From Clostridia bacterium (GTDB taxonomy: Bacteria > Bacillota > Clostridia > UBA1381): 64,000 nt of DNA. Location: NCBI GenBank assembly GCA_017443895.1, contig JAFSXU010000068.1, positions 62,001 to 126,000 of the forward strand, written 5' to 3'. Position 1 is the first letter of the stretch. Each line of letters starts with the position of its first letter. This document shows, piece after piece, positions 24,434-34,239 of this stretch. The notes under the pieces were generated by a model that was not told the origin of the DNA, did not search any database, and was given only the letters and a program-made list of their open reading frames with translations. The position numbers and the translations under genes are program-made.

Positions 24434-25531
24434 ATGTCAAAAATCAATGTAACTCGTTCCTCAATGCCGGAGTTTGAGGAATATGTAGAAGAAATAAAAA
24501 ATTTATGGGAAACAAGATGGCTTACCAATATGGGAGAAAAGCACAATGCTTTGCAGGACAAGCTTTGTGAATATTTATCTGTGGATAATGTATCGTTATT
24601 TACAAACGGTCATCTTGCACTCGAGGCGGCAATTACCGTTATGGGGTTGTCGGGTGAGGTTATAACAACACCGTTTACATTTGCCTCAACTACACAGGCG
24701 ATTGTCAGATGTGGCTTAACACCCGTGTTTTGTGATATAAATCCCGATGATTACACTATTGATGTAAACAAGATAGAGGAGCTTATAACCGACAAAACAT
24801 CAGCTATAATTCCTGTTCATGTTTATGGAAATGTGTGTGATGTACATAAAATTGAGGAAATAGCAAAAAAACATAATCTGAAGGTCATCTATGATGCGGC
24901 TCATACATTTGGCGTACGAGTGGGAGACCAGGGTATTGGCTTATTTGGTGATGCCTCAATGTTCAGCTTCCATGCCACTAAGGTGTTTAACACCATTGAG
25001 GGCGGTTGTGTTACATATAGCGATAGCAGCTTAACAAAAAAACTACAAATACAAAAAAATTTTGGCATGGCAGATCAGGAAAGCTATCCCGAGGTTGCAG
25101 GAAATGCTAAAATGAATGAATTTCAGGCGGCTATGGGCTTGTGTAACCTCCGTCATGTAGACGGCGAGATAAAAAAGCGCAAAGCTGTGGTAGAACATTA
25201 TATAGACAGGCTTGATGGAATAGATGGAATTACAGTATGGAAACCACAAAAGGGAATAAACCACAATTATGCATATTTTCCTGTGGTTTTTGATGAGGTT
25301 AAGTTTGGCAAATCCCGTGATGAGGTTGCCCAAATGCTTGGTGCTGAGGGAATATTTGCAAGAAAGTATTTCTATCCTATCACAAATGAATTTGAGTGCT
25401 ACAAAGGCAGGTTTGAAATTCAGCAAACCCCAATAGCAAAAAAAGTATCTATGGAGGTACTCACCTTGCCGTTATATGCGGATTTGGCAATCAGTGATGT
25501 GGACAGGATTTGTGATATTATTTTAAAATAA
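24434..25531 (+). CDS. DegT/DnrJ/EryC1 sugar transaminase, VioA-like
   Basis: This PLP-dependent sugar transaminase has 365 residues. The N-terminal [35 protein letters not shown] (about residues 75-90), [11 protein letters not shown] (about 152-162) and the PLP lysine in [17 protein letters not shown] (about 181) all fit. The 'rWLTN.G' start and '[15 protein letters not shown]' resemble dTDP-4-amino-4,6-dideoxyglucose transaminases (VioA/DesV group) more than the FdtB/QdtB 3-amino group, as far as memory allows. Directly upstream of rmlA and rmlB, it would use dTDP-4-keto-6-deoxyglucose. Confidence 0.85.
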
Positions 25532-25547
25532 TAAGGAGAGGTTATCA

Positions 25548-26420
25548 ATGAAAGGAATTATTTTAGCCGGAGGCAAGGGGACAAGGTTATATCCAAACAC
25601 GATAGCTGTTTCAAAGCAGTTATTGCCGATTTATGACAAACCGCTTATATATTACCCCTTATCGGTATTATTATTGGCAGGCATAAGAGAGGTTTTGCTT
25701 ATATCCACACCGCATGACATTGATAACTATAAGGAGCTTCTTGGTGACGGATCAAGGATAGGTATACACATAGAATACAAGGTGCAAGAAACGCCCCGTG
25801 GACTTGCCGATGCGTTTATTCTTGGTGAGGAATTTATCGGCAAGGACAGTGTTTGTTTGGTTTTAGGTGACAATGTGTTCTACGGTCAATCGTTTAGTCA
25901 AACATTACAGCGAGCAATAGCAAACACTGAAAAATACGGTGCAAATATATTCGGAATTATGGTAAAGGATCCGAGAGCTTTTGGCGTTGTTGAATTTGAT
26001 AAAGACGGCAAGGTTATTTCAATTGAGGAAAAGCCCCAAAAGCCGAAGTCAAATTATGCTGTCCCGGGACTTTATTTTTACGACAACGATGTAATAGAGG
26101 TTGCCAAAAATGTAAAGCCATCAGATAGGGGCGAGATTGAGATTACAGCCGTAAACAATGCATACCTTGAAAAAGGTAAATTGCATGTAACCTTAATGGG
26201 CAGAGGTATGGCATGGCTTGATACGGGTTCGCCTAAGGGTATGCATAAAGCAGCAGGCTTTGTAAAAACCTTACAGGAAATGCAAGGGTTCTACATTTCA
26301 TGCATAGAGGAAATAGCGTGGCGCAGAGGCTTTATAGATGATGCCAAGCTTTTTAAGCTTGGCCAAGAGCTTAGTATGACAGATTACGGACAGTATATAC
26401 TGTCATTATTGGAGGATTGA
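25548..26420 (+). CDS. rmlA: Glucose-1-phosphate thymidylyltransferase
   Basis: RmlA joins dTTP and glucose-1-phosphate to dTDP-glucose. The 290-residue protein has the nucleotide-binding signature [14 protein letters not shown] at residues 5-18, [18 protein letters not shown] after it, [10 protein letters not shown] at about 107-116 and the [16 protein letters not shown] block. TAAGGAGAGG precedes the ATG. Together with rmlB it makes dTDP-4-keto-6-deoxyglucose. rmlC and rmlD, needed for rhamnose, are absent from the window, so the pathway probably runs to an amino sugar instead. Confidence 0.95.
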
Positions 26421-26426
26421 ATATAA

Positions 26427-27440
26427 ATGAATATTTTAGTAACAGGCGGTGCGGGATTTATCGGTGGTAATTTTGTGCATTATATGGTGGCTGCTCACCC
26501 CGATTACAACATAATTGTACTTGACAAGCTTACATATGCAGGAAATCTTGAAACATTAGAGCCTGTAATGAACAAGATAAAATTTGAAAAAGCAGATATT
26601 GCAGACAGAAAGGCAGTATACAGGTTTTTTGAAGAGTACAAGCCTGATATTGTAGTCAACTTTGCGGCGGAGTCACATGTTGACAGGTCAATAGAAAATC
26701 CCGAAATATTTTTGCAGACAAATATTTTAGGTACTCAGGTGCTTATGGACGCTTGCCGTAAGTATGGGATAGAGCGTTATCATCAAGTGTCAACCGATGA
26801 GGTGTACGGCGATTTGCCGTTAGACAGACCGGATATGTTCTTTACCGAGGAAACACCAATTCATACATCAAGCCCATACAGCGCATCAAAAGCCTCGGCG
26901 GATTTACTTGTACAGGCATATCACAGGACATATGGCTTGCCTGTTACGATTTCAAGATGCTCAAACAACTATGGGCCGTATCATTTCCCGGAAAAGCTTA
27001 TTCCGCTTATGATTGCAAACGCTTTGGCGGATAAACCGTTACCTGTTTACGGCGAGGGCTTGAATGTGCGTGACTGGTTGTATGTTGAAGATCACTGCCG
27101 TGCCATTGATTTGATTATACACAAAGGTACGGTGGGCGAGGTATACAATATCGGCGGCCATAATGAAAAGACAAATATTTATATTGTGAAGAAAATACTG
27201 GAGCTTTTGGATAAGCCCGAAAGCTTAATCACATATGTAACAGACCGAAAAGGCCATGATCTTCGCTATGCGATTGATCCTACAAAAATCCATAATGAGC
27301 TTGGTTGGCTGCCTGAAACAAAATTTGATGACGGTATTGTAAAAACGGTTAAGTGGTATCTTGATAATGAGGGCTGGTGGAAGAAAATCATCAGTGGCGA
27401 GTATCAGGACTACTACGCAAAAATGTACGGAAACAGATAA
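26427..27440 (+). CDS. rmlB: dTDP-glucose 4,6-dehydratase
   Basis: RmlB converts dTDP-glucose to dTDP-4-keto-6-deoxyglucose with an internal NAD+ redox cycle. The 337-residue SDR protein shows the NAD motif [13 protein letters not shown] at residues 4-16, [13 protein letters not shown] at about 82-94, [10 protein letters not shown] with the catalytic Asp-Glu near 124-133, and the YSASKAS catalytic Tyr and Lys near 151-157. GGAGG precedes the ATG, and the gene is 6 bases after rmlA. Confidence 0.95.
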
Positions 27441-27450
27441 GGGATAAGGT

Positions 27451-28686
27451 ATGACACAGGAATTTTATGATGTTGTAAAGTTATTCGGAGCAGGTGCTTT
27501 GGGTACAGTTTACAACCCCGACCATGAACTTGATATTGAAAAAATTTATAAGCTGTCGCTTGAGCAGGGAATTTGGCAGACGGTTTATTTGGCGTTAGAA
27601 AAAATTGCGGATTTATCAAAATATAAAATAAAGTTTTTATCTTCTGTGTCAAAGAATATTTCAAAAAAAGAATTTATTTATGATACTGTTGATGAATTGG
27701 AAGAAAACGGTATTGAGTGTACATATTTAAAGGGTGTTACGGTTGCAAGGTTCTATATTGAACCTGATTGCAGAATATCGGGTGATACCGATATTCTGGT
27801 TGATGAGAAAGAGTTAAGCCATGCAAGAAAAGTTTTAAAACACGCCGGTTTTGATGTTGAGGAAAACATCAGCAATATGTATCATTTTGAAGCACAGCAC
27901 CCTGTTGGCGGGATCTTGGAGGTCCACAAGGATTTGTACCAAAAGCATATAAGAGATATTTTATTTAAAGGATTACTTTCATACAATGAGCCGAGAAATT
28001 GTGTAACGGTGGATAACCATAAAATAAAAACACTCGGCATAAATGATGAGCTTAATCACCTTACCGCACATTATATAAAGCATTACATCACAAAAGGCGC
28101 AGGTATAAGACCACTTATGGATTTAATGCTATATATTAAGCATTACGAGTCTCAAATTGACTGGGAACAGTATAACAAAATTTGGAAAGATATCGGTTTT
28201 TATAAACTTATAGAGATTTTTAAGGGAATTGCGGTTAAATATTGGAATTTTGAATTTAATACATACAATGCCGAATTTGCCGAAGATGTATTGGGAGATA
28301 TAGAGCGAGGAGGCTTATTCGGATTTGGTGATGAGGATGGGATTGACTTTTTAAATGTTTATTTGGCAGAAACTCAGGATAAGAATGCGTTAAATGAGTA
28401 TATGTCTAAAAACCCCTTGCGCTCCAAGTTGTGGAGGATTTTTCCAAACAGACTGTATTTATCAAGAAGCGGATATCCGTATGCCATGAAAGGCGGAGTG
28501 TTCTTATTCTGGGCGAGGCTGGTGCGCTTAAAGCGGATTGCAATAGAAGTGTTACTAAAGAAGAGGAGTGTTTCATCAACTGCTAATTACAATCTCAGAA
28601 CAGATGAAAATGAATCCGAGAAGAACAGAATGGATTTAATGAGGCGTATCGGTCTTGTAAAGAATGATTTAAAGGAAGAAGACTAA
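27451..28686 (+). CDS. Nucleotidyltransferase-fold protein (NTP_transf_5-like)
   Basis: The 411-residue protein resembles the uncharacterised nucleotidyltransferase family NTP_transf_5. The key segment is CTYLKGVTVARFYIEPDCR followed by SGDTDILVDEKEL at about residues 109-121, the G-D-x-D-x-L metal-binding pattern of the polymerase-beta superfamily. EVHKDLYQKH and NHLTAHYIKHYI further on also fit the family. Proteins of this type recur in exopolysaccharide loci, but no reaction is known to me. The stop overlaps the start of the kinase gene by one base, so the two are translationally coupled. Confidence 0.65.
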   Translation: MTQEFYDVVKLFGAGALGTVYNPDHELDIEKIYKLSLEQGIWQTVYLALEKIADLSKYKIKFLSSVSKNISKKEFIYDTVDELEENGIECTYLKGVTVARFYIEPDCRISGDTDILVDEKELSHARKVLKHAGFDVEENISNMYHFEAQHPVGGILEVHKDLYQKHIRDILFKGLLSYNEPRNCVTVDNHKIKTLGINDELNHLTAHYIKHYITKGAGIRPLMDLMLYIKHYESQIDWEQYNKIWKDIGFYKLIEIFKGIAVKYWNFEFNTYNAEFAEDVLGDIERGGLFGFGDEDGIDFLNVYLAETQDKNALNEYMSKNPLRSKLWRIFPNRLYLSRSGYPYAMKGGVFLFWARLVRLKRIAIEVLLKKRSVSSTANYNLRTDENESEKNRMDLMRRIGLVKNDLKEED

Positions 28687-29837
28687 TGAACGATTTTTTT
28701 AAAAGTCAACAAACACATACAGCGTTTTGTCCGTACCGTGTATGTCCCTTAGGTGCGCATATCGACCACCAGCACGGTATTGTTACAGGTTTTGCGCTGG
28801 ACAAGGGAATAACAATTACATATTCAATAAATGACGACGGTATGTGCAGAGTTAAAAGTGCAAATATGGAGGGTGAGAAGGAGTTTAAGGTTTCTCACAT
28901 TCCGCACAAGATCGGTGACTGGGCAGACCATATGCGTGGCGTTATACAGATTTTAAAGCGAGATTATGACATAACAAAGGGCGTTACGGCATATATTGAA
29001 GGGTCGTTGCCGATTGGCGGATTATCCTCATCTGCGGCGGTTATTATTGCGTTTATGTCTGCAATTTGTAAGGCGAACGGGATAGAAATGACAAAGCCCG
29101 ATGTTATAAAATACGCAATGGCGGTTGAAAACAAGTATGTCGGCGTAAACTGCGGTAAGCTTGACCAAAGTACCGAGGTTTACTCCCAAGCCGGACATCT
29201 TTTATACCTTGACACAGAAGATGACAGCTATAAGCTGATTAGTCCGCAAAACAATATGCCTGATTATGAAATAGGAATATTCTTTTCGGGAGTACCCAGA
29301 AGCCTTGCAGGAACGGCATATAATATGCGGGTTGATGAATGTAAGGCGGCGGCATATGCACTTATGGCATTTGAGGGAATGGAATATCATAAATTTGAGA
29401 ATACATATTTAAGAGATGTGCCGTACGAGGTTTTTATACGGCATAAGGACAAGCTACCCGAAAATTGGCGAAAAAGAGCAGAGCATTTTTACAATGAGCA
29501 AAGCCGTGTAAAAAGAGGTGCGAAGCTGTGGGAGCAAGGAGATTTAGTAGGCTTTGGCAAGCTCATAAACGAATCGGGCAAAAGCTCGATAGAGAGCTAT
29601 GAAACAGGATCCCCTGAGTTAAAAGCGTTATATGAAGCGTTGCTTGAGTGTGAGGGCGTTTACGGAACCCGATTTTCGGGTGCGGGATTTAAAGGGTGTT
29701 GTATGGCGCTTGTAGATCCAAAATATAAAGATGAAATAAAAAGTTATGTAACAGAAAAGTATCTTGCAAAATTCCCGGAGTTAAGAGATAATTATGAGGT
29801 ACACTACTGTAAAACTGCAAATGGAGTTGATTTTTAA
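28686..29837 (+). CDS. Galacturonokinase-like GHMP kinase
   Basis: This 383-residue GHMP kinase is related to galactokinase. It has the ATP loop PIGGLSSSAAV at residues 109-119, a catalytic Asp160 in CGKLDQ, and the C-terminal TRFSGAGFKGCC. Galactokinases carry GEHTDY in the sugar-binding segment. Here it is PYRVCPLGAHIDHQHG (residues 16-31), with Ala in place of the Glu that contacts galactose O6. The same PYRxCPLGAHIDHQ segment and GVYG-RFSGAGF-GCC are, from memory, characteristic of plant galacturonokinase. I therefore predict ATP-dependent formation of galacturonate 1-phosphate. Plain galactokinase activity remains possible. It sits next to nucleotidyltransferase and UDP-uronate genes. 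Confidence 0.75.
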   Translation: MNDFFKSQQTHTAFCPYRVCPLGAHIDHQHGIVTGFALDKGITITYSINDDGMCRVKSANMEGEKEFKVSHIPHKIGDWADHMRGVIQILKRDYDITKGVTAYIEGSLPIGGLSSSAAVIIAFMSAICKANGIEMTKPDVIKYAMAVENKYVGVNCGKLDQSTEVYSQAGHLLYLDTEDDSYKLISPQNNMPDYEIGIFFSGVPRSLAGTAYNMRVDECKAAAYALMAFEGMEYHKFENTYLRDVPYEVFIRHKDKLPENWRKRAEHFYNEQSRVKRGAKLWEQGDLVGFGKLINESGKSSIESYETGSPELKALYEALLECEGVYGTRFSGAGFKGCCMALVDPKYKDEIKSYVTEKYLAKFPELRDNYEVHYCKTANGVDF

Positions 29838-31091
29838 ATGATATGTAAAAATTGTGGAAGAGAGATAAGCTCTCAAAACAGCAGATGCCCACACTGCAAT
29901 ACTGTGATAACTGCACAAGAGGTTGAGCAGTACAGAAAAGAAAAGGCACAGAACTCCGAAAAAAACGAGGGTATAACAAAGAGGAATATAATAATTATTT
30001 TGGCCGGGCTTGGCGGTTTGATTTTGCTGGGTGTTGTTGCGGCGCTTATCTGGTCGGGAAGTATCGGCGATGCTATCCGCTATAATTATTATGAGAAAAA
30101 TTATCGGTATGACGAGGCAAAAGCATTGCTTGAAACATCAAAGAGATATGACAACGACAAAAAGTATTATGAGTTTATAGATACAGCATCGGAGCTTTTT
30201 GATGAAACGGAATATGATAGCTACACAGGAAAATGTGATACCGTAATTAAAGCATATGATGAAATAGACCTGACCGTTTTAACTGATGTAAGAAAGAACA
30301 AGGCGGACGCGGTAAAAGCAGCTGTTGATAAGCTTTTAGGCTATAATTTTGATGACATTAAAAACAAAATGAGAATAGCCTATGATTTGCATGAGGAGAT
30401 AAACAAGTATAAGCTAAATTATGGTTTTAATGTAGAAAATGAAAAGGCAAAGCTTGCAAAATGGCAAGAGGATTATAAATCTGTAAACAAAATATATGCA
30501 GATTTAAAAGGTGCTGATTTAAAGGAATATTCGAGCGTTTTGCACATTATTACACAGACCATACGGGAGATTGACAGACTTACCCCCGATGAAAACGGAA
30601 TGGCATTTTTTGAGGGGTTTGCTATTTCGTATCAGAACAGTCCTGATTTAGGAAAGATTGACAGTGAGGTTAAGGACTTGAAAAATGCTGTTGTCTATAA
30701 CTGTTCAAAAACCGTAAGCATTGCATTGTACGGTAACGGCAACAGGGCGACTTTGCAAAAGCCGGTAAACTACGAGGGAAAAGACTCACAAAAAACATAT
30801 GACCTGTTTAAAAATGTAATTGACTTTAACAGCTATATCAAGACTTCCCGTTCGGCAGATTCTGACTTTGAACATTTCTACAGATATGTTGACGGTGAGG
30901 ATCCTGTAGCATCTATTGAGACCTACATCTCTGATATGGAAAAACGGGGCTTTGTACTCACCGAGCACGGAAATACAACCGCCAGAGGTCTGTATGTTCT
31001 TCAGGGCGAAACGGAGAGGGTAAGAATAAGCTACAGTACAGTTGATAAAACGGTAACGGTCCGTGTGGAAAACACGAATGTGCCGAAGTAA
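29838..31091 (+). CDS. Zinc-ribbon membrane protein of unknown function
   Basis: The 417-residue protein starts with a zinc ribbon, CKNCGREISSQNSRCPHC (residues 3-20, C-x2-C then C-x2-C). A basic linker and one transmembrane helix follow at about residues 49-70. The rest is a helical, charged extracytoplasmic region up to about 260 and a beta-rich C-terminal domain. Such zinc_ribbon_2-plus-helix proteins are common in Clostridia and are not characterised. The ATG immediately follows the kinase stop, so it is translated from the same message. No enzymatic motif is visible. It may be a sensor or a scaffold for the surface polysaccharide machinery, but that is a guess. Confidence 0.6.
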   Translation: MICKNCGREISSQNSRCPHCNTVITAQEVEQYRKEKAQNSEKNEGITKRNIIIILAGLGGLILLGVVAALIWSGSIGDAIRYNYYEKNYRYDEAKALLETSKRYDNDKKYYEFIDTASELFDETEYDSYTGKCDTVIKAYDEIDLTVLTDVRKNKADAVKAAVDKLLGYNFDDIKNKMRIAYDLHEEINKYKLNYGFNVENEKAKLAKWQEDYKSVNKIYADLKGADLKEYSSVLHIITQTIREIDRLTPDENGMAFFEGFAISYQNSPDLGKIDSEVKDLKNAVVYNCSKTVSIALYGNGNRATLQKPVNYEGKDSQKTYDLFKNVIDFNSYIKTSRSADSDFEHFYRYVDGEDPVASIETYISDMEKRGFVLTEHGNTTARGLYVLQGETERVRISYSTVDKTVTVRVENTNVPK

Positions 31092-31108
31092 AACAGGAGC
31101 ATGGTATA

Positions 31109-31849
31109 ATGAAATGTATAATTTTAGCAGCGGGATATGCAACAAGGCTATATCCTCTGACCCAAAACTTCCCAAAACCGTTGCTTGAGGTAGGAAATAA
31201 GACGATTGTTGATTGGCTTATAGACGATATAAAAACGGCAAATACGGTTGATGAGTTTATTGTAGTGTCAAATCATAAATTTGTAAAGCATTTTAATGAT
31301 TGGGCAAAAGATAAAAAGAATATCACAATTCTTGATGACGGTACCGACAGTAACGATAATCGCTTAGGTGCCGTAAAGGATATTGAATTTGCAATAGAAC
31401 GATGCAATATTGATGACGATGTTATGGTTCTTGCAGGGGATAATGTATTGGATTTTTCCATGTGTGGGTTTATTGATTATTTTAATAATAAGCATAAAAC
31501 CTGTGTTATGCGGTATTATGAGGAAGATAAAGCCAAAATATCAAAAAGTGGCTGCCTTGTAATTGACACTGCGGATAAGGTGCATGAAATGATGGAAAAA
31601 CCCAAAGCGCCAAAGTCTAATTGGTGTTGCCCGCCGTTCTATATCTATTCCAAAGAAGATGCAAAAAAGATAAATAAAGCAATTGATGAAGGTGCAGGAG
31701 TTGATGCGCCGGGCAGCTTTATTGCTTGGCTGTGTAAGATGGCTGATATATATGCCTTTGAAATGCCGGGACACAGATACGACATTGGAAATCTTGAAAG
31801 CTATGAGCGTGTAAAAGCGGAATATAGGGGAATGTTGTCAGGCAAGTAA
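31109..31849 (+). CDS. Sugar-1-phosphate nucleotidyltransferase
   Basis: This GT-A-like nucleotidyltransferase of 246 residues has the signature ILAAGYATRLYPLTQNFPKP (residues 4-23), where the usual G-x-G-T-R loop reads G-Y-A-T-R. It also has VLAGDNVLDFS at about 111-121 and EKPKAPKSNW near 156-165. The single catalytic domain without a beta-helix tail fits an enzyme that activates one sugar phosphate, in the RmlA/LicC-like group. Next to the galacturonokinase-like gene, its likely substrate is galacturonate 1-phosphate, giving an NDP-uronate. This is an inference from context and the nucleotide is unknown. Confidence 0.75.
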   Translation: MKCIILAAGYATRLYPLTQNFPKPLLEVGNKTIVDWLIDDIKTANTVDEFIVVSNHKFVKHFNDWAKDKKNITILDDGTDSNDNRLGAVKDIEFAIERCNIDDDVMVLAGDNVLDFSMCGFIDYFNNKHKTCVMRYYEEDKAKISKSGCLVIDTADKVHEMMEKPKAPKSNWCCPPFYIYSKEDAKKINKAIDEGAGVDAPGSFIAWLCKMADIYAFEMPGHRYDIGNLESYERVKAEYRGMLSGK

Positions 31850-31854
31850 ATAAG

Positions 31855-31888
31855 ACTCGTTAACCACCGTAAGCGGTGTCAGACGAGT
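31855..31888 (+). other. Two-stem hairpin between uronate genes
   Basis: ACTCGT (31855-31860) pairs with ACGAGT (31883-31888). Inside it CACCG (31865-31869) pairs with CGGTG (31874-31878) around a TAAG loop. There is no U tract. It lies in the 92-base gap before the epimerase gene and could influence message stability or partial termination. Confidence 0.4.
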
Positions 31889-31941
31889 TGCCATAACCAT
31901 ACAATAGATTGACAAGATTAGGAGTATAGGGGAATAGCAAT

Positions 31942-32997
31942 ATGCAAAGGATAGATTTAGAGAATAAAACGGTCTTTATTACAGGTGTTGCAGGGTTTAT
32001 CGGGGCAAACCTTGCAAAGCGTGTTTTAAGTGAGACAAGCGGTATAAAAGTGGTCGGTCTTGATAATATGAACGATTATTACGATGTCCGTTTAAAGGAA
32101 TACCGCTTGGGTGAGTTATCGGGCTTTGATAACTTTACTTTTATTAAAGGCAACCTTGCAGATCGTGATACAGTCAATAGGATATTTGATGAATATAAAC
32201 CGTCGGTTATTGTAAATCTTGCCGCACAGGCGGGGGTACGGTATTCGATTACAAATCCCGATGCCTATATAGAGGCAAATCTGATAGGCTTTTATAATAT
32301 ATTAGAAGCGTGCCGTCATTATATGCCGGAGCATCTTGTATACGCATCATCATCCTCCGTTTACGGCTCAAATAAAAAGGTGCCGTATTCTACCGATGAC
32401 AAGGTGGACAATCCTGTATCGTTGTATGCGGCAACAAAAAAATCAAATGAGCTTATGGCACATGCTTATTCAAAGCTCTATAATATCCCATCAACCGGAC
32501 TTAGGTTCTTTACCGTATACGGACCTGCAGGCAGACCTGATATGGCATATTTCGGTTTTACAAATAAGCTCTTAAAAGGGGAAACGATACAGATATTTAA
32601 CTATGGAAACTGTAAGCGTGATTTTACATATGTTGATGATATAGTTGAGGGTGTTCTAAGAGTAATGCAGGGTGCACCCGATAAAAAGACGGGCGAGGAC
32701 GGTCTGCCAATTCCTCCGTATGCGGTATATAACATAGGAAATAATCAGCCGGAGAATTTGCTTGATTTCGTGCAGATTTTACAAGAGGAGTTAATCAGAG
32801 CTGAGGTTTTACCTAAGGACTATGACTTTGATGCACATAAAAAACTTGTGCCTATGCAGCCTGGCGATGTGCCTGTTACATATGCAGATACCGAGGCACT
32901 TGAGCGAGATTTCGGATTTAAACCGTCAACCTCGTTAAGAGAGGGACTAAGACGGTTTGCACAGTGGTATAAGAAGTTTTATTTGGAGGATAAGTAA
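31942..32997 (+). CDS. UDP-glucuronate 4-epimerase-like SDR
   Basis: The 351-residue SDR enzyme has VFITGVAGFIGANLAKRVL (residues 11-29), AAQAGVRYSITNPDAYIEAN (about 93-112), ASSSSVYG and the catalytic YAATKKSNELMAHAYS (about 155-170). AAQAGVRYS together with LRFFTVYGPAGRPDMA is the pattern of UDP-glucuronate 4-epimerases, which interconvert UDP-glucuronate and UDP-galacturonate. The next gene supplies UDP-glucuronate from UDP-glucose, so the pair forms a de novo route to UDP-galacturonate. An AGG-rich leader precedes the ATG. Confidence 0.85.
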   Translation: MQRIDLENKTVFITGVAGFIGANLAKRVLSETSGIKVVGLDNMNDYYDVRLKEYRLGELSGFDNFTFIKGNLADRDTVNRIFDEYKPSVIVNLAAQAGVRYSITNPDAYIEANLIGFYNILEACRHYMPEHLVYASSSSVYGSNKKVPYSTDDKVDNPVSLYAATKKSNELMAHAYSKLYNIPSTGLRFFTVYGPAGRPDMAYFGFTNKLLKGETIQIFNYGNCKRDFTYVDDIVEGVLRVMQGAPDKKTGEDGLPIPPYAVYNIGNNQPENLLDFVQILQEELIRAEVLPKDYDFDAHKKLVPMQPGDVPVTYADTEALERDFGFKPSTSLREGLRRFAQWYKKFYLEDK

Positions 32998-34239
32998 ATG
33001 CCGGATTTAAAGATTGCAGTGGCAGGAACGGGATATGTAGGGTTATCTATCGCTACACTCCTATCTCAGCATCACAGAGTTTATGCAGTGGATATAATCC
33101 CTGAAAAGGTGGATTTAATAAATAATAAGAAATCTCCCATACGGGATGAGTATATAGAAAAATATCTTGCACAAAAAGACCTTAACTTAACTGCCACCCT
33201 TGATGCAAAGGAAGCGTATACGGATGCTGATTATGTTATAATTGCTGCTCCTACAAACTATGACAGCAAGAAAAACTTTTTTGATACTTCGGCAGTCGAG
33301 TCTGTAATTGAGCTTGTAATGAAGTATAACCCAAATGCTATTATGGTTATAAAATCAACCATTCCCGTTGGTTATACCGAGCATATAAGAGAACAATCGG
33401 GCAGTAAGAATATAATATTCAGTCCTGAATTTTTAAGAGAGAGTAAGGCATTATATGATAATCTGTATCCGTCAAGAATTATTGTGGGTACTGACTTAAA
33501 TGATAAAAGGCTTACGAATGCCGCAAATGAGTTTGCAGGGCTCTTAAAAGAGGGTGCAATAAAGGAGGATATTACTACTCTTATTATGGGCTTTACGGAG
33601 GCTGAGGCTGTTAAGCTCTTTGCAAACACATATCTTGCCCTAAGAGTTGCATATTTTAATGAGCTTGATACATATGCAGAAAGTAAAGGACTTGATACTA
33701 AGCAGATTATTGACGGCGTATGCCTTGATCCGAGAATAGGCTCGCATTATAATAATCCGTCATTTGGTTATGGCGGCTACTGCTTACCGAAGGATACCAA
33801 GCAGCTGCTTGCAAATTATCAGGATGTGCCTGAAAACTTAATCGGCGCTATTGTTGAGTCGAACAGAACGAGAAAAGACTATGTTTCTAACCGTGTACTT
33901 GAAATTGCAGGGGCATATGGTGAAAACGACAGCTGGGATAATGATAAGGAAAAGGATATTGTTGTCGGAGTATATAGGCTCACAATGAAGTCAAATTCTG
34001 ATAATTTCAGACAATCATCCATTCAGGGCGTTATGAAGAGAATTAAGGCAAAGGGCGTTGAGGTTATTATCTATGAACCCACATTGGAGAATGGAACCAA
34101 GTTCTTTGGAAGTAAGGTTGTAAATAATCTTGATGAGTTTAAGCGCTTGTCAAATGCAATTATTGCAAACAGATACGATACTTGCCTTGATGATGTAAGG
34201 GATAAGGTATATACAAGGGATATATTCAGACGGGATTAA
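32998..34239 (+). CDS. ugd: UDP-glucose 6-dehydrogenase
   Basis: This enzyme oxidises UDP-glucose to UDP-glucuronate with two NAD+. The 413-residue protein has the Rossmann motif [13 protein letters not shown] at residues 6-18, [10 protein letters not shown] at about 122-131, [19 protein letters not shown] near 142-160, and the catalytic cysteine in [16 protein letters not shown] (about residue 262). The GGYCLPKDT form is typical of true UDP-glucose dehydrogenases, unlike the enzyme at 10050. The ATG follows the epimerase stop directly (TAAATG), so the two are co-translated. Confidence 0.92.

Follow-up and report, generated by a model that had tools for sequence, protein, structure and literature searches.

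A galactokinase-like kinase and its partner nucleotidyltransferase as a candidate galacturonate salvage route in gut bacteria

Pectin consists mainly of galacturonate, a sugar that bacteria are usually known to burn rather than to reuse as a building block. A kinase-based way of reusing sugars is given by cell-wall sugar recycling of the AmgK/MurU type, in which an anomeric kinase and a nucleotidyltransferase act together and de novo synthesis is bypassed. In plants, galacturonokinase (GalAK), with a Km for galacturonate of 71 uM (PMC3938481), produces galacturonate-1-phosphate (PMC8636097), which is an accepted substrate of the plant UDP-sugar pyrophosphorylase (PMC5609113). Fish and frogs are reported to carry a short pyrophosphorylase fused to a glucuronokinase (DrGKUP, zebrafish/Xenopus); the pyrophosphorylase half has bacterial relatives, including in Ruminococcus, Firmicutes, Prevotella, Alistipes and Verrucomicrobium, and its activity in the zebrafish fusion was undetected in vitro (PMC3938481). 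Our literature search found no published bacterial galacturonokinase, an absence that is weak evidence as few subscription papers were covered.

Here we analyse a gene cluster in a 64,000-nucleotide stretch of DNA from a Clostridia bacterium (the window; Table 1). Judged from its sequence, and with a probability of roughly 0.8, it would encode a bacterial galacturonokinase and a dedicated galacturonate-1-phosphate uridylyltransferase that feed UDP-galacturonate (UDP-GalA) and UDP-glucuronate (UDP-GlcA) synthesis for surface polysaccharide. The route would then best be read as plant-type salvage with a bacterial dedicated pyrophosphorylase. The main doubt concerns the substrate, galacturonate versus glucuronate or a 6-deoxy or pentose sugar, as well as the nucleotide.

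Table 1. Features of the gene cluster in the window; functions are predicted
Feature	Position	Strand	Remarks
RfbA glucose-1-phosphate thymidylyltransferase	25548..26420	+	TIGR01207 above cut-off; same gene run, other sugar
RfbB dTDP-glucose 4,6-dehydratase	26427..27440	+	TIGR01181 above cut-off; same gene run, other sugar
PF14907 uncharacterised nucleotidyltransferase	27451..28686	+	One-base overlap with kinase start
GalAK-type GHMP sugar-1-kinase, predicted galacturonate 1-kinase	28686..29837	+	383 aa; confirmed by translation, ATG 28686, stop 29837
Sugar-binding segment R18-V-C-P-L-G-A24-H-I-D27-H-Q29 (codons 18-29)	28737..28772	+	Translation; clade-specific C20, P21, A24, H28
Zinc-ribbon/TcaA-like protein between kinase and partner	29838..31091	+	417 aa
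Sugar-1-phosphate nucleotidyltransferase (partner), predicted galacturonate-1-phosphate uridylyltransferase	31109..31849	+	246 aa; PF00483
UDP-glucuronate 4-epimerase-like SDR (UDP-GalA <-> UDP-GlcA)	31942..32997	+	351 aa
UDP-glucose 6-dehydrogenase (de novo UDP-GlcA)	32998..34239	+	413 aa; TIGR03026 above cut-off, NF011631 567 bits

The kinase lies in a dense plus-strand gene run (24434-34239) with gaps of 0-92 bases from position 26420 on. An earlier sequence-only reading had called it a clear GHMP kinase, which is borne out by three Pfam domains above cut-off, namely GHMP_kinases_N, GHMP_kinases_C and the galactokinase galactose-binding signature. Its top NCBIfam model is the galactokinase (GalK) model TIGR00131, with 223 bits against a curated equivalog cut-off of 226.65, and the confident AlphaFold model (mean pLDDT 87) has as its top PDB matches galactokinases, many of them galactose-bound (query TM mostly 0.8-0.9, 25-28% identity). 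The protein hence has a galactokinase fold, yet is no galactokinase by the curated rule.

What sets it apart is the sugar-binding segment. The kinase contains both PYRVCPLGAHIDHQ and GVYGTRFSGAGFKGCCMA, in agreement with the sequence-only reading, which had noted GAHIDHQ in place of the galactokinase GEHTDY and an exchange of Glu for Ala; Ala24 indeed aligns with the GEHTDY Glu of the Lactococcus galactokinase (1pie). In the latter enzyme (residues Arg36, Glu42, His43, Asp45, Asp183 and Tyr233), the Glu missing here is the O6 contact. R18 and D160, the catalytic Arg and Asp, are kept, as are the sugar-binding His25 and Asp27; the GalK counterpart of Asp27 contacts ring hydroxyls of the O3/O4 side. 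When 117 members of the kinase's clade (the GAH clade) were aligned with 26 galactokinases, all of the former had Ala24, and 88% of the latter had Glu at this position. As all 117 collected relatives share it, Ala24 is not a stray mutation. Further clade-specific positions in this alignment are Tyr17, Cys20, Pro21, His28, Leu159, Val216, Trp282, Gly298, Ser301, Gly308, Phe330, Ser331, Cys339 and Pro364. Two features speak against a galacturonokinase: no clade-specific Lys or Arg for carboxylate binding stands out among these positions, only His28, and Phe replaces the Tyr matching Tyr250 of the Arabidopsis enzyme in 94 of the 117 members.

A phylogeny, proposed together with the sequence-only reading as a check on it, supported that reading by placing the kinase outside bacterial GalK. 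In this maximum likelihood tree the 25 sampled GAH members form one clade (support 100/100) on a stem of 1.7 substitutions, separate from GalK and from kinases with Asn at the Glu position (Asn-type). When 398 genomes of the phylum were searched with a profile, a clean gap appeared as well, with clade members at 452 bits or more and GalK at 242 bits or less. One could still take the protein for an ordinary galactokinase that has drifted at one residue, given its GalK fold, the galactokinases that are its closest solved structures and a score barely below the GalK cut-off. However, the uniform exchange in all relatives, more than 12 additional clade-specific positions, the score gap and the separate clade make this hardly credible.

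The comparison with plants was made with a provisional Arabidopsis GalAK sequence, not a database copy, which was in place before L165, a deep bacterial member, entered the analysis. Its numbering gives Ala41 (the counterpart of Ala24), Tyr250 and Ala368, the residues of published mutants. Its identity to clade members is 34-44%, against 23-32% to other kinases. Within the GAH clade it pairs with L165 (support 100/99; 44% identity), with which it has YLGLRNGILDQSAILL in common, a stretch that is absent from the window kinase. The resemblance to plant galacturonokinase claimed earlier would thus extend to the tree, and we regard the apparent link between plant GalAK and the bacterial clade, with the plant side provisional, as a strong lead and no more. 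The Arabidopsis enzyme (At3g10700, EC 2.7.1.44) and the window kinase are both GHMP kinases with the motifs PYR-I/V-CPLGAH-x-DHQ and GVYGxRFSGAGFxGCC; the reaction predicted for the bacterial protein is identical, and both would supply UDP-GalA. They differ in that the window kinase is bacterial and about 39% identical over the protein to the provisional plant sequence, and in that plants employ a broad UDP-sugar pyrophosphorylase whereas the window has a small dedicated nucleotidyltransferase in the operon.

The new point of this study is the near-constant linkage of the GAH kinase to this one nucleotidyltransferase. The window protein contains PF00483 and reaches no specific equivalog cut-off. 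Its family, about 245 aa long, directly follows the kinase in 80 of the 86 loci with room for it, including every such related genome, and it is also found beside distant members from other lineages such as a kinase only 35% identical to the query from the phylum sample drawn for an Opitutales genome; at the deep member L167, no partner lies alongside the kinase. Among 101 related genomes, a high-scoring partner occurs in all 12 kinase carriers, and one truncated partner occurs without a kinase (Fisher p ~1e-14, to be taken as a guide only because the genomes are related). Kinase and nucleotidyltransferase would together activate a free sugar, the first forming a sugar-1-phosphate and the second using it. 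Such a bypass would resemble the AmgK/MurU arrangement, from which it differs in kinase fold and sugar. With DrGKUP it would share the succession of a uronate kinase and a short bacterial-type pyrophosphorylase, both activities being predicted in the window; unlike DrGKUP, the window has two separate genes and a kinase on another GHMP branch. The partner also appears to occur in the same kinds of bacteria as the relatives of the DrGKUP pyrophosphorylase, a likeness drawn at the level of taxa. The zinc-ribbon/TcaA-like gene between kinase and partner also follows the kinase in a second genome, and only in this genus, the partner being directly next to the kinase at other related loci; its product is probably outside the pathway.

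A second subfamily of short nucleotidyltransferases (L195-L202; 38-43% identical to the partner, 229-270 bits) is found in relatives without the kinase, in several genomes directly 3' of a PRPP synthetase-like gene as seen by eye, and elsewhere next to various other genes. It was dropped as a functional clue, as none of the eight loci read has it beside a sugar kinase.

Downstream of the partner, the epimerase-like protein carries YAATK, fitting the SDR YxxxK motif. Its nearest solved structure is 5u4q (deposited as a dTDP-glucose 4,6-dehydratase), next comes 6zl6 (4e-41), from the characterised UDP-GlcA 4-epimerase of Bacillus cereus, and 6kv9 (MoeE5) ranks lower. A gene of this kind lies near the kinase in 39 of 91 loci and a UDP-glucose dehydrogenase in 21, and the window has both. 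The setting among uronic acid genes, as described before, is therefore real and recurrent, although not universal, since many kinase loci lack the epimerase. The PF14907 gene is likewise recurrent near the kinase at several other loci, but not constant.

The dehydrogenase and epimerase would be equally compatible with a supply of UDP-GlcA. The kinase could also be a glucuronokinase or a dual uronate kinase, whose glucuronate-1-phosphate the partner would convert directly into UDP-GlcA, and the bacterial relatives of the animal pyrophosphorylase, reported from Ruminococcus, Prevotella, Alistipes and Verrucomicrobium, fit this as well. We consider it unlikely. Asp27, a ring contact of the O3/O4 side in GalK, is conserved. 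In addition, the sequences of plant GalAK and glucuronokinase are reported to differ strongly (PMC3938481), and the window kinase is GalK-like and groups with the provisional GalAK sequence.

On the preferred galacturonate reading, the kinase would convert ATP and D-galacturonate to alpha-D-galacturonate-1-phosphate, from which the partner would form UDP-galacturonate with UTP. The epimerase would then interconvert UDP-GalA and UDP-GlcA, and the dehydrogenase would add to this pool by de novo synthesis from UDP-glucose. Substrate, nucleotide, reaction direction and incorporation into polysaccharide are all inferred. Galacturonate that is imported or set free from pectin could in this way go directly into the surface polysaccharide of the cluster, besides being burned via UxaC. 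The host genome encodes UxaC and six GH28 genes, and the cell therefore probably has free galacturonate at its disposal.

The loss of the Glu side chain need not imply a carboxylate. The substrate might instead be a galacto-configured sugar without one (L-arabinose, D-fucose, or galactose at relaxed specificity), with Ala merely dropping the O6 contact. In this context, the second GalK-like protein of the host genome (L002:1321-2607, G000 contig C5; 429 aa) reads GGNHTDHQHG and thus has Asn at the Glu position, and Ala alone cannot be held diagnostic of a galacturonokinase, which is a correction to the sequence-only reading. However, the clade shared with the provisional plant GalAK sequence, the adjacent uronate enzymes, the separate GalK-like kinase and the lack of a nearby GalT render a non-carboxylate substrate quite improbable. 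With one GalT query, GalT was found near none of the clade kinases (0/119 loci), compared with 8 of 53 loci of other kinases, where the flanks were shorter than for the clade loci. A second, lower-scoring GalK-like gene was present in all five genomes tested from other lineages. The GAH kinase hence has the fold, the catalytic Arg and Asp and the sugar-site His and Asp of GalK, and departs from it in Ala24, the further clade-specific changes, its own clade and its neighbours.

The Asn-type kinase occurs in most relatives and adjoins threonine synthase in several of them and GalT in one (G088, L207). Its identification as a homoserine kinase was dropped, since a relative of it adjoins GalT.

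The kinase clade is widespread, with hundreds of loci mainly in herbivore-gut genomes, and includes Bacillota, Bacteroidota, Verrucomicrobiota and Planctomycetota. Scanning named genomes gave at least 575 stretches encoding a clade kinase, the best 80 of which come mostly from Clostridia and Bacteroidales, besides a single member each of Opitutales and Thermoguttaceae, and largely from herbivore guts, in which the scanned collection is itself rich. Among the 101 related genomes, 12 have a clade member (identity at least 51%), and the remaining GalK-like matches are at most 36% identical, short partial matches excepted. Even sampling of the phyla to which three clade loci belong shows the kinase to be rare overall (1/296, 3/241 and 2/244 genomes). 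A bacterial galacturonokinase-like gene, which the sequence-only reading had thought unusual, is not rare among gut bacteria.

If the galacturonate reading is true, gut bacteria could build galacturonate from the diet directly into capsule or exopolysaccharide, and 'galactokinase' annotations would be corrected in many genomes. It would also provide a bacterial system in which to test the animal-type uronate pyrophosphorylase, for which activity failed to show in vitro. One could speculate further, with somewhat less than even confidence, that a two-gene module from galacturonate to UDP-galacturonate is widespread in bacteria and that plant galacturonokinase derives from its kinase lineage and the domain of the animal glucuronokinase fusion, itself of unproven activity, from its pyrophosphorylase lineage.

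Searches of phages and plasmids gave only ordinary GalK matches, with the exception of one Lactococcus garvieae plasmid (CP066001.1; L203:13977-15153). Its capsule locus has the order epimerase, kinase, nucleotidyltransferase and dehydrogenase, and its epimerase and dehydrogenase are 83-84% identical to those of the window. With the kinase frame broken in two and no annotation for the partner, the pair may be decaying on this plasmid. Lastly, at six other loci (L056, L057, L076, L082, L094 and L105) the kinase pair was seen by eye to lie directly 3' of genes resembling those for UDP-L-FucNAc synthesis (WbjB/C/D-like).
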